Of a DNA stretch of 64,000 nucleotides, positions 34,053-48,399 are shown piece after piece. The DNA is from Methylocystis sp. L43 (GTDB lineage: Bacteria; Pseudomonadota; Alphaproteobacteria; Rhizobiales; Beijerinckiaceae): assembly GCF_015709525.1 (NCBI RefSeq), contig NZ_JADNRA010000033.1, positions 62,001 through 126,000 of the forward strand, read 5' to 3'. A program made the translations under genes and the position numbers. The number at the start of each line of letters is the position of its first letter. Position 1 is the first letter of the stretch. Under the pieces are notes generated by a model. That model saw only the letters and a list, made by a program, of their open reading frames with translations. It did no database searches and was not told the origin of the DNA.

Positions 34053-34207
34053 CTTAAATTCCAGAATATTGGCCCTAAAAGCCCGTACGCGTGCGATTCT
34101 TTGCTAGTGCGGACATGTTCTCGTCCCATTATTTGTTTTTCGTGACCAGGCGCGGCGGCTCGCTTCCGAGACCTTCGCGAGGCGACTGCGCCGCCAGAGG
34201 GGATATT

Positions 34208-35467
34208 ATGAAGACTCGAGGCATAGCGCCGGCGCTGGGGCTTGCCGTCCTCGCGGCCTTTGCGCTCTCGGCCTGCGAGCAGAGCGGTCTCGCGCATCGC
34301 TCGCTTGCGCCGATCCCTGCCGAGACTGTCGCGCTGATGGAGCAGGCCGGCACGACCAAGGAAGCGCCGATGCTGATCCGCGCCTACAAAAAGGAAGCGG
34401 AGCTCGAAATCTGGAAGATGCGGTCCGACGGTCATTACGTCCATCTGAAGACGTTTCCGATGTGCCGCTGGTCGGGTCAGCTCGGCCCCAAGCGTCGCCA
34501 GGGCGACCGCCAAGTGCCGGAGGGCTTTTACGCCATCGGCCCCGCGCAGATGAATCCGAACTCAAGCTATTATCTGTCGTTCAATGTCGGCTATCCGAAC
34601 GCGCTCGACCGCGCGCTTGGCCACACCGGCGGCGACATCATGGTGCATGGCGCCTGCTCATCGGCCGGCTGCTTCTCGATGACCGACAAACAGATCGCCG
34701 AGATCTACGCGATCGCCCGCTCGTCGCTCGCCGGCGGTCAGCGCGCGATCCAGATGCAGTCCTTCCCCTTCAAGATGACGGCGGAAAATCTCGCCAAGCA
34801 TCGTCTCGACCCCAACATCGACTACTGGAAGCAGCTCAAGGAAGGCTCCGACCATTTCGAGGTGACCTTGCAGGAGCCGCAGGTCGCCTTCTGCAATCGG
34901 CGCTACGTGTTCAACGCCGCCGGCGCGGCCAATCTTGATCCGGACGCCGCCTGTCCGCCGCTCAAACAGGACCCGGAGATCGCCCAGGCGGTGGCTCAGA
35001 AGAGCGCCCAGGATGAAGCCAAAATCGCCCAGCTCGCGCAAAGCGGCGTGAAGCCGGTGCGGATCGTTTATCAGGACGGCGGCCAGCACCCGGCCTTTGC
35101 GTCGCGGGTTCCGGAGGTCAGCCGGCCGGAAACGATCCTTCCGCCGACCGAGATCGCCCTCGACGAGAAGCCGAACCGAGGCGCGGGGTCAGCGGTCGCC
35201 AAACTCGCCGCAAAATCGCCGATCGTGACCTTGGCCGGGGCGAAGGCCGCTGATGAAAGCCGGCAGACCCGCGTCGTCGCAATGGCGCCGATGCGCAGCG
35301 ACCACCGCGACATGTCCGCGCTCGCAGTCTCGGATCCAAGCCCCACCAACAGCGTAAAAAAATTGGCGCGTTACAGCAGGGACACACCGGCGGGAAATAT
35401 TCCGACGCCGCCGGCCTCTATCGGCGTCAGGAAATCCGCCGCCGCTCATTCGTCCAAATCTTTTTAA
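34208..35467 (+). CDS. YafK-type L,D-transpeptidase family lipoprotein
   Basis: 419 residues from the ATG at 34208, with AGAGGGGAT just upstream; the frame is open 39 codons further but without a start context. Lipobox LSAC near residue 22 predicts a lipid-anchored envelope protein. The YkuD/YafK catalytic core is at about 55-215: ELEIWKM, CRWSGQLGPKR, GDRQVPEGFYAI, then the catalytic HGACSSAGCFSM with Cys near 155. Such enzymes cross-link peptidoglycan or attach or release outer-membrane lipoproteins. The C-terminal 150 residues are Ala/Pro/Lys-rich and probably disordered. A terminator follows 20 bases after the stop. Confidence 0.88.
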   Translation: MKTRGIAPALGLAVLAAFALSACEQSGLAHRSLAPIPAETVALMEQAGTTKEAPMLIRAYKKEAELEIWKMRSDGHYVHLKTFPMCRWSGQLGPKRRQGDRQVPEGFYAIGPAQMNPNSSYYLSFNVGYPNALDRALGHTGGDIMVHGACSSAGCFSMTDKQIAEIYAIARSSLAGGQRAIQMQSFPFKMTAENLAKHRLDPNIDYWKQLKEGSDHFEVTLQEPQVAFCNRRYVFNAAGAANLDPDAACPPLKQDPEIAQAVAQKSAQDEAKIAQLAQSGVKPVRIVYQDGGQHPAFASRVPEVSRPETILPPTEIALDEKPNRGAGSAVAKLAAKSPIVTLAGAKAADESRQTRVVAMAPMRSDHRDMSALAVSDPSPTNSVKKLARYSRDTPAGNIPTPPASIGVRKSAAAHSSKSF

Positions 35468-35487
35468 GCTCTCGGATCCTTCGAACT

Positions 35488-35516
35488 AAGCCGCGCTTCG
35501 GCGCGGCTTTCTTTTT
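35488..35516 (+). terminator. Intrinsic terminator after the L,D-transpeptidase gene
   Basis: A perfect 9-bp stem, AAGCCGCGC and GCGCGGCTT, with a stable TTCG loop, followed by TCTTTTT. Confidence 0.92.
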
Positions 35517-35570
35517 GCCCAAGGCGGTGGGTGCTACTAGCTGAAGCTTTGCAGTGTAGCGAAAAAAACC

Positions 35571-35599
35571 TTGACTCTTGTGCGGCGCAGCAATATAAC
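35571..35599 (+). promoter_or_regulatory. Sigma70-type promoter of a candidate sRNA
   Basis: A -35 box TTGACT at 35571-35576, exactly 17 bases, and a -10 box TATAAC at 35594-35599: ten of twelve consensus positions with ideal spacing. It is preceded by an A-tract (GAAAAAAACC). The predicted start is near A35606. No open reading frame follows before the terminator at 35663. Confidence 0.8.
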
Positions 35600-35605
35600 A
35601 GTGCG

Positions 35606-35693
35606 ACGCAGCGAGAGTTCTCTTGCTTCGTAGCCCTCCTTGGGCGTTTCCTCCCTTGACTTGGGCCGCTGGTTCGTCCGGCGGCCCTTTTTT
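35606..35693 (+). ncRNA. Candidate trans-acting small RNA with CCUCC anti-Shine-Dalgarno motifs
   Basis: About 88 nt between a near-consensus promoter and a strong terminator, with no ORF. A 5' hairpin is formed by ACGCAGCGAGAG and CTCTTGCTTCGT (one mismatch, one G-U). Next, GCCC-TCCTT-GGGC puts a CCUCC motif at a small loop, and a second CCUCCC lies single-stranded before the terminator stem. This design matches the established logic of alphaproteobacterial alpha-r14 and CcsR (cuckoo) sRNAs, which pair with ribosome binding sites. I could not assign it to a named family. Confidence 0.65.
35663..35693 (+). terminator. Intrinsic terminator of the candidate sRNA
   Basis: A 7-bp GC-only stem, GGGCCGC (35663-35669) and GCGGCCC (35681-35687), then six T. 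The T-run touches the stop codon of convergent cobB. A separate terminator already ends the transpeptidase gene at 35516, so this one serves the sRNA. Confidence 0.88.
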
Positions 35694-37062
35694 ATGCCAA
35701 CAGGTGGAAAAATGAGCCGGAGACGCGGTTTCTCGCCAGTCCGGCCGGGCGTTCATCGTCGCTATAGGCGTCGCGCGTCAGCGCGAAGGGCTGGCCTTCT
35801 TCGCGAAGAACAGTCGCGTAGTGAAATTCATGCCCGCGCAGTCGAAATCCGACAGCGCCCAGCGGATGATCAACCGCCAAACAGGCCTGGCGATAGCCGA
35901 GATGCAATTTGCGCTTGGCGAAGCTCGTTTCCAGTTCGAGCAGTCCGGCCATTTCATGCGCCGCGCCCGCCGCGTCGATCAGCGCGCGGCCAAGAACCAT
36001 GTAGCCGCCGCATTCGCCGTGGAGCCATCCTCTCTGAGCGAAACGCCGCAACCCCTTTATGAAGCCCTGCGCCGCCGACAACCGGCCGGCGTGCAGCTCC
36101 GGATAGCCGCCCGGCAGCCAGCAGAGATCGCAATCTTCTGGCGGCGCCTCATCGGCGAGCGGCGAGAAGAAGCAAAGCTCCGCGCCGGCGTCGCGCCAGC
36201 TCTGCGCGAGATGCGGATAAAAAAAGGAGAAAGCGTCGTCGCGCGCCACCGCGATGCGCTGCGCGGGGGGCGGGAGGGCGGCAGAAGGGACTCTCACGCC
36301 GCTTTCGCGTAACGCTGATGAAGCGTGCGGCGTTGCTCCCTCTCCCGCGAAGCGGGGGAGGGCCGGGGAGGGGGCGGCGCGCGCAGTCTCGGTCACTGCA
36401 CCCACATCCACATGCGCCTCGATGAAATCTGCAAGCGCCTCGAGACGCCCATCGAGCTCTGGCGTTTCGCCTGCCTGAACCAGGCCGAGATGGCGTTCGG
36501 GCAGGGCAATCTTCTCATCGCGGGGCAGCGCGCCGAACACCGGGATGCCCAGCGCCTCGATCGCTTCGCCGGCGAGTCTGCGATGCCGCTCCGAGCCGAC
36601 GCGGTTCAATACGACGCCGGCGACCTTTACGCGCGCGTCGTGGCCGGCGATGCCGCGGACAATCGCCGCTGCGGTCTGCCCCTGGCCGGAGACGTCATGA
36701 ACGAGCACGACCGGCCAGCCGAGCAGGGCGGCGACGTCGGCGCTGGCGCCGATTCCCGCCGCCCCGCCGGGCGCGCCGTCAAAGAGCCCCATCGCGCCTT
36801 CGGCGATCACGATGTCCGCCCCTTCGCTCACCCGCGCGGCGAGCCGCGCAATCAACGCCGCATTCATCGCCCATGAATCGAGATTGACGCCGGGTCGGCC
36901 GGTGGCCGCCGCGTGAAAGGCAGGGTCGATGTAATCCGGCCCGCATTTGACGGGGGCGACGCGCAAGCCGCGCCGCATCAGCGCGCGCATCAGGCCGAGC
37001 GTCAGGGTCGTCTTGCCCGATGAGGAGCGCGCGGCGCCGATCAGCAGGCCAGGCGCGTTCAC
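35692..37062 (-). CDS. cobB: Hydrogenobyrinic acid a,c-diamide synthase
   Basis: 456 residues. CobB amidates the a and c side chains of hydrogenobyrinic acid using glutamine and ATP. The N-terminal dethiobiotin-synthetase-like ATPase domain has the P-loop [13 protein letters not shown] (about 11-23), [13 protein letters not shown] and EGAMGLFDG; the C-terminal glutaminase-like domain has [11 protein letters not shown], the cysteine in [14 protein letters not shown], and HEFHYATV. Between the domains, residues about 229-266 ([14 protein letters not shown] and following) are encoded by an inserted palindromic repeat. Last gene of the cob operon; it overlaps cobM by four bases. Confidence 0.95.
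36262..36378. repeat. Family C palindromic repeat inserted in frame in cobB
   Basis: CTCCCTCTCCCGCGAAGCGG and GGGAGGGCCGGGGAGGGGG at 36338-36376 match the intergenic element at 9175-9213 almost base for base. The left flank to about 36262 is also repeat-like (ACGCTGATGAAGCGTGCGGC). It is read through as a Pro/Ala-rich linker between the two CobB domains. Confidence 0.85.
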
Positions 37063-48131: not shown

Positions 48132-48195
48132 ATCGGTCTCCCTGCCGCCCCACCGGCGGCGATGCGATGCGCGCGGCGATCGTAAGCGATCGCCA

Positions 48196-48368
48196 GACGG
48201 CAGGTCTCCTGGCTCCCGGCTCGTCGGACCGCGCCGCCTTCCCAAGCGTTCAAGCTCAGTGGCGGATGGCGCGGGCCTCGCCGGCTACAGTTGCGGGGGC
48301 AGCCGCGGATAGGGGCGTAATGCCCGCGCCGCGTTCCCTTTTCACTTCTTGCGAAGGACCGTCCCGAC
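48196..48368 (-). promoter_or_regulatory. Cobalamin riboswitch
   Basis: Read on the minus strand, the conserved elements come in order: GGTCCTTCGCAAG, GGGAACGCGG, GGGCATTACGCCC, GCGGCTGCCCCCGCAACTG, GCCACTG, GGGAAGGCG and the B12 box GAGCCAGGAGACCTGCC. A perfect 8-bp hairpin (48175-48194, loop of four) lies just beyond the aptamer, and GCCGCC-GGTG-GGGCGGC precedes the cbtB ribosome site; no T-run is seen, so control is probably at translation initiation. Cobalamin binding should turn the operon off. Confidence 0.96.
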
Positions 48369-48370
48369 TA

Positions 48371-48399
48371 GTCATATGCGCGGCTTAGGCTTCCGTCAA
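48371..48399 (-). promoter_or_regulatory. Sigma70-type promoter of the cbtB-cobB operon
   Basis: On the minus strand, TTGACG (48399-48394), 17 bases, TATGAC (48376-48371). The predicted start near 48364 coincides with the 5' end of the cobalamin riboswitch. Confidence 0.75.

Follow-up and report, generated by a model that had tools for sequence, protein, structure and literature searches.

An alpha-r8 (suhB/MmgR/Sis) small RNA gene of Methylocystis with PhaR-type operator palindromes, and family members on phage genomes

Introduction

What does the DNA between the L,D-transpeptidase gene and cobB of Methylocystis sp. L43 encode, to which family does it belong and what would control it? The initial annotation of the window (the whole stretch of 64,000 nucleotides that was analysed) proposed an independent, unannotated small RNA (sRNA) gene with two CCUCC anti-Shine-Dalgarno motifs, suggested a relation to alpha-r14 or CcsR and raised antisense interference with the cobalamin operon.

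In 2005 the RF00519 element was reported to be probably a small RNA, present in many alpha-proteobacteria; in the published accounts it corresponds to MmgR in S. meliloti and to SisA-D in Caulobacter. PhaR (AniA) is reported to bind the S. meliloti mmgR promoter (EMSA), and depletion of phaR in that species to cause overproduction of MmgR. Caulobacter SisA is described as repressing its targets via a 10-mer anti-Shine-Dalgarno motif. The consensus TGCRNYGCASMA was derived, according to its source, from sites footprinted with PhaR and from promoters of its targets in Bradyrhizobium. A switch of the PhaR type is known beforehand from one model species.

A small RNA gene of the alpha-r8 family

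The stretch 35571-35693 looks like a genuine and complete small-RNA gene (Table 1). Its promoter was claimed to match 10 of 12 consensus positions with 17-bp spacing, which is borne out; the window contains the pattern TTGAC...TATAAY with 16-19 bases between a single time, where 0.03 occurrences would be expected. A stricter promoter scan found none, having missed TATAAC because T was required as the last -10 base. The predicted start was placed from the -10 element and the S. meliloti site-to-start distance. The preceding gene has its own terminator, as had been noted, the stem (35488-35509) lying 61 bases before the -35 element. Two ORFs of at least 60 aa touch the sRNA gene; both are judged spurious, which leaves no convincing ORF there.

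Folding of 35606-35693 gives a 5' hairpin, a small GCCC/GGGC hairpin and the terminator at -42 kcal/mol, compared with -26.5 kcal/mol for shuffled sequences (z = -5.1; none of 200 shuffles as stable). The 5' hairpin, the small hairpin with its loop CCUCC and the linker CCUCCC that the initial annotation listed are all present, and the linker motif is the conserved seed of the suhB/MmgR family. The 5' hairpin does not appear in the consensus fold of 48 sequences (alignment A1, 48 of 49 references; L026 excluded). The terminator ends in six T as described; its stem is not GC-only, as it comprises nine G-C pairs and one G-U pair. A simple terminator scan is by itself no evidence, because its 2 hits in 1.8 kb compare with 1.9 expected.

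Table 1. Features of the sRNA locus and its flanks (positions in the window).
Feature	Position	Strand	Evidence
L,D-transpeptidase (YkuD domain), upstream gene	34091-35467	+	Pfam YkuD, 28.7 bits (cut-off 23.4)
Spurious ORF spanning sRNA gene	35427-35756	-	ORF list, at least 60 aa
Intrinsic terminator of L,D-transpeptidase gene	35488-35517	+	9-pair stem 35488-35509, T-rich tail
Sigma-70-type promoter TTGACT-N17-TATAAC	35571-35599	+	10/12 consensus match, pattern scan
PhaR/AniA-type operator 1, TTGTGCGGCGCAGCA, in promoter spacer	35578-35592	.	fits TGCRNYGCASMA on both strands
Second palindrome TGCGACGCA, at predicted start site	35602-35610	.	begins 21 bp after first
Predicted sRNA transcript	35606-35693	+	about 88 nt; start predicted at 35606-35608
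5' hairpin	35606-35631	+	MFE and centroid fold
RF00519 suhB/mmgR covariance-model match	35626-35701	+	69.3 bits (cut-off 41), E 3.1e-12, model 1-77 of 77
Small hairpin GCCC-UCCUU-GGGC	35633-35645	+	single-sequence fold and 48-sequence consensus fold
Spurious ORF, TTG start inside sRNA gene	35640-36062	+	antisense to cobB
Unpaired anti-Shine-Dalgarno seed GUUUCCUCCC	35646-35655	+	sequence, alignment, fold
Intrinsic sRNA terminator	35663-35693	+	stem 35663-35687, six T at 35688-35693
cobB, convergent neighbour	35692-37062	-	CbiA and GATase_3; stop codon 35692-35694

The Rfam covariance-model search that had been suggested as a check returned a full-length family match, to RF00519. 'Unannotated' is therefore true of the raw window and not of the element, which is a clear Rfam match. 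A promoter and an intrinsic terminator of its own are a feature of RF00519 members, and to judge by sequence both are present here; the family letters of the core GUUUCCUCCC are those of the alignment and of the Rfam consensus. The gene belongs to the known alpha-r8 (suhB/MmgR/Sis) family and as an sRNA is ordinary.

In the relatives search, which counts our own genome, RF00519 is over its cut-off in 51 of 61 genomes, and in the class search in 86 of 190. In the Methylocystis sp. L43 genome a single copy exceeds the cut-off; a second, weak place scores 29.3 bits, below the threshold, and has CCTCC and a terminator (L002 1501-1569; own genome C24:8223-8291). RF00519-like weak places with scores near 29.3 bits also occur in several genomes of the same genus.

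Conservation among relatives

The same-genus set comprises 25 loci, namely our own and the best-scoring 24 of the 36 same-genus genomes with a locus. Promoter and terminator (the latter counted without a shuffled control) are kept in all 25 (own plus best 24 of 36), as are the upstream TTGAC and the C of the loop CCUCC. Among the matches listed, the loop position of genome-collection copies is C in 86 of 122 and T (CCUUC) in 36 of 122; the loop copy is not fixed, and twin CCUCC as the defining design was discarded.

The terminator stem covaries, with double changes at six of nine pairs. Over both helices together 97.4% of cells are paired, and 37 double-change cells compare with 9.0 in shuffles. 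The genome-collection (L003-L121) and viral (L228-L347) copies were retrieved with a 24-mer containing one C/T position, so the invariance of the core in these two sets is by construction; L127 has no exact core. Sequence and conservation together support the proposal that this is an independent sRNA gene bearing anti-Shine-Dalgarno motifs.

Palindromes of the PhaR type in the promoter

The initial annotation described neither of the two PhaR-type palindromes at the promoter. Operator 1 overlaps the promoter, as for members of the PhaR regulon. The operator pattern, a 12-mer, is not rare in the whole genome (62 strand hits, 35 in the reversed control), and its count in the window (2, with 1.1 expected) is unsurprising; at operator 1 the hits on the two strands pair up 3 bases apart, an arrangement that the 4.06 Mb genome has at six places in all.

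All 25 same-genus upstreams (own plus best 24 of 36) contain the strict palindrome TGCRNYGCA, and 23 of the 25 contain two strict sites, spaced by 21-22 bp in 20 and by 30-31 bp in three. Outside this set, among the matches listed, the strict form is found in 66 of 121 distinct genome-collection upstreams (4.6 in shuffles), the published relaxed form YGCRNYGCR in 107 (19.6 in shuffles) and a pair of relaxed sites with a spacing of 19-22 bp in 46 (0.1 in shuffles). These sequences are related and the counts consequently not independent; after clustering at 60% identity, again among the matches listed, the strict form is present in 40 of 75 (2.7 in shuffles), the relaxed form in 62 of 75 and the relaxed pair in 23 of 75. 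The class loci were picked by model score and not by core letters (28 valid; L206 excluded, locus incomplete), and 16 of the 28 have the strict and 23 the relaxed form. The second palindrome overlaps the 5' hairpin, and its conservation may therefore partly serve RNA folding.

PhaR was found in 28 of the 29 class genomes tested; the sole genome without PhaR has no site, and nor do 4 of the 27 valid PhaR-bearing genomes. Our own genome encodes both PhaR and Hfq, and has phasin genes at three places. Paired palindromes lie upstream of two of these three, one pair flanking a TTGACT box. Taken from sequence, the distribution suggests that the link between PhaR and alpha-r8 is old in the class, often in a twin-operator form.

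An alpha-r8 copy scoring 65.5 bits is also carried by plasmid pMpar-2 of Methylocystis parvus (L225 5013-5127). This copy has two palindromes of the PhaR type, spaced by 21 bp, and transposition genes of the TniQ/TniB/Mu type lie some 1.6 kb away from it.

Proposed regulation and targets

We consider it probable, at roughly 80%, that the locus encodes an alpha-r8 sRNA that is repressed by PhaR, held by Hfq and blocks ribosome sites, and that it is tied to PHB storage. The family match, the conserved architecture with its operator-like palindromes and the genes for PhaR, Hfq and phasins were obtained here; transcription, PhaR binding, Hfq binding and the target set are extrapolated from S. meliloti and Caulobacter. 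While storage polymer is scarce, free PhaR, a PHB-granule-binding repressor, would occupy one or two of the promoter palindromes and block transcription. As PHB accumulates, PhaR would be drawn to the granules and the sRNA made, by analogy with S. meliloti. The RNA of about 88 nt, presumably held by Hfq with GUUUCCUCCC exposed, would pair through this seed with the Shine-Dalgarno regions of mRNAs and lower their translation.

Targeting of phasin mRNAs is not supported by duplex energy. Against a background of 49 start regions from the window (starts picked by script), the two phasin starts that carry operators come 26th and 34th of 50; rank 4 goes to the second gene of the C23 phasin operon and rank 11 to cobB. 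The pattern GGGAGGAAA-N2-9-ATG occurs at two places in the genome, one without an ORF of at least 80 aa there and the other before a methyltransferase-like gene. GGGAGGAAAC occurs at five genome places, among them the sRNA itself; no clear ribosome site is among the five, and no CrfA-like sponge was seen among the genome-wide perfect seed-complement places.

The same sRNA could instead answer mainly to another regulator that reads the palindromes, the RNA governing uptake or general metabolism, as SisA does, rather than PHB. Such an arrangement would accord with the strong representation of TonB-dependent receptors and other transporters among the published SisA targets, with sis promoters that are described as having no common motif, with the reported response of S. 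meliloti mmgR to NtrC as well, and with the operator-bearing phasin start regions not being outstanding as targets here. We regard it as unlikely, since the palindromes agree with both published forms of the PhaR site, and similar pairs lie before two of the phasin loci in this genome.

cobB and the gene neighbourhood

A CobB match is present in all 25 same-genus loci (own plus best 24 of 36), and the place beside cobB is a genus trait. The locus of a Methylocystis sp. MAG shares the neighbours of the gene here (L,D-transpeptidase 83%, CobB 80%, AccA 94%). FGase, the usual though not obligatory neighbour of alpha-r8, is found in none of the 25 same-genus loci (each about 3 kb or less), in contrast to five of five order loci and, within 1.5 kb, 45 of 74 testable genome-collection loci among the matches listed.

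That the 3' end of the sRNA meets the stop of cobB, as the initial annotation remarked, is correct to the extent of two bases; the antisense control derived from it is not supported, as the overlap varies between loci. A cis-antisense RNA against cobB or the cobalamin operon would be consistent with this overlap and with the CobB match in every same-genus locus. The two bases lie in the U tract, and an overlap of this size is found in 17 of 25 same-genus loci; in seven others sRNA and cobB are separated by 2 to 1016 bases, and the remaining locus, whose stop is uncertain, reads as overlapping by 40 bases. With such gaps, and with relatives outside the genus having the sRNA elsewhere, as the FGase counts indicate, antisense control is very improbable. 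That the sRNA is a member of alpha-r14 (NfeR1) or CcsR, whose sRNAs also carry CCUCC-type motifs, is not supported and extremely unlikely, since a lax Rfam rescan (to E = 1) gave RF00519 at E = 2.4e-14 and neither of those names, as far as Rfam models cover those families. SorY, SorX, sbrA and others from that scan were set aside with scores under their own cut-offs; the scan omitted, unnamed, one lower-scoring match belonging to the clan of another match listed.

Elsewhere in the window, a cobalamin riboswitch (48182-48376, minus strand, 120 bits) shares its strand with the cob genes. Within cobB, a palindromic G+C-rich sequence, CTCCCTCTCCCGCGAAGCGGGGGAGGG (36330-36385), is in frame and looks like a dispersed repeat inserted into coding sequence, with a resemblance to rhizobial palindromic elements.

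Copies on phage and viral contigs

The 24-base core (one C/T position) is found in at least 120 stretches of viral contigs (L228-L347). These copies differ from the genome-collection copies upstream of the core: among the matches listed, the strict PhaR palindrome is present in 5 of 113 distinct viral upstreams (91 clusters at 60%) against 66 of 121, and the relaxed form in 16 of 113 against 107 of 121 (Fisher p 1e-18 and 1e-32, statistics that ignore relatedness). Terminator-like stems follow the core in 112 of 119 viral copies among the matches listed, by a lenient test run without a shuffled control. Of 13 phage or viral sources searched with the Rfam models, nine are over the RF00519 cut-off of 41 bits, and the remaining four fall short of it at 40.2, 38.0, 37.5 and 32.0 bits.

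In 32 of 102 viral and 2 of 110 genome-collection instances among the matches listed, the core is preceded on its own strand by a NusG-like ORF that ends at most 600 bases upstream; seven of these viral proteins went into the search profile, and without them the viral count is 25 of 95. Two of the profile proteins and their equivalents in two Bradyrhizobium phages match PHROG 6386 (transcription antiterminator), and all four also match Pfam NusG, one just under the cut-off. In both of these phages, OP596613.1 and OP596612.1 (L348, L349), the core is located between the NusG-like gene and genes for HNH endonuclease, terminase, portal and capsid. OP596613 is over the RF00519 cut-off (62.8 bits); OP596612 keeps the seed and at 32 bits is below it. 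A box YATAGG within 60 bases upstream is present in 23 of 32 NusG-linked copies and in 2 of 123 genome-collection copies among the matches listed, and is perhaps a phage promoter element.

These observations are compatible with an alpha-r8 sRNA common to host and phage, a tentative reading to which we give somewhat less than an even chance. The chromosomal copy would be wired to PhaR, and the copies of alphaproteobacterial phages, mostly without the operator, would be terminated late-leader RNAs that bring the host anti-Shine-Dalgarno seed, and with it part of the host translation network, under phage control. The late-leader place is that of the 6S RNA of lambda. This picture does not cover all copies, because 70 of 102 viral instances among the matches listed lack the NusG neighbour and three of nine further neighbouring proteins have no family match; the low score of OP596612 weakens it as well. 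No report of phage-borne alpha-r8 was found in the literature at the level of titles and the beginnings of abstracts, where an earlier mention of phage copies or class-wide operators may have escaped notice.

PP395640.1, 'Microcystis phage Mwe-JY08' (L227 2994-3077), carries an alpha-r8 sRNA of 62.8 bits. The phage is labelled as infecting a cyanobacterium; its true host may be an alphaproteobacterium.

Comparison with known systems

MmgR of S. meliloti (alpha-r8, RF00519) is a close point of reference, the full-length covariance match being to the model named after it. In the published description mmgR likewise has a dyad between -35 and -10, and the palindrome-to-start distance here is near the 13 given for mmgR. 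The Methylocystis gene differs in its twin palindromes 21 bp apart, where the published table has one row for mmgR, in its predicted length of 88 nt, compared with 77 nt reported for MmgR, and in its neighbours, the L,D-transpeptidase gene and cobB. SisA-D of Caulobacter crescentus (alpha-R8) share the family and the type of anti-Shine-Dalgarno seed, for which direct pairing is reported in Caulobacter. Caulobacter has four paralogues, whereas the genome here has a single copy above the cut-off plus a weak place; the Caulobacter sisA lies downstream of FGase, which the same-genus loci lack.

The suhB RNA element described in Agrobacterium and others (2005) has a promoter, a short 5' helix, an unstructured conserved part and a terminator, as here, and was reported not to be bound to specific neighbours. 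There is no difference of kind from the element as published; operator palindromes are not among the features in that description. The AbcR sRNAs (alpha-r15) are described as having partial homology to RF00519 and CU-rich anti-Shine-Dalgarno motifs, and an earlier survey also gave RF00519 hits at their loci. They are reported to be 114-120 nt long with three stem loops and two anti-Shine-Dalgarno motifs, whereas the element here follows the 77-position suhB model from end to end.

Implications

The link from PhaR to alpha-r8, shown in S. meliloti, would extend to the methanotroph Methylocystis, and PHB control in such bacteria would thereby become testable with one deletion. More interest attaches to the widespread twin operator and to the phage copies than to the sRNA as such. 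If the phage copies are active, phages would have recruited a conserved host sRNA and freed it from the carbon-storage switch.
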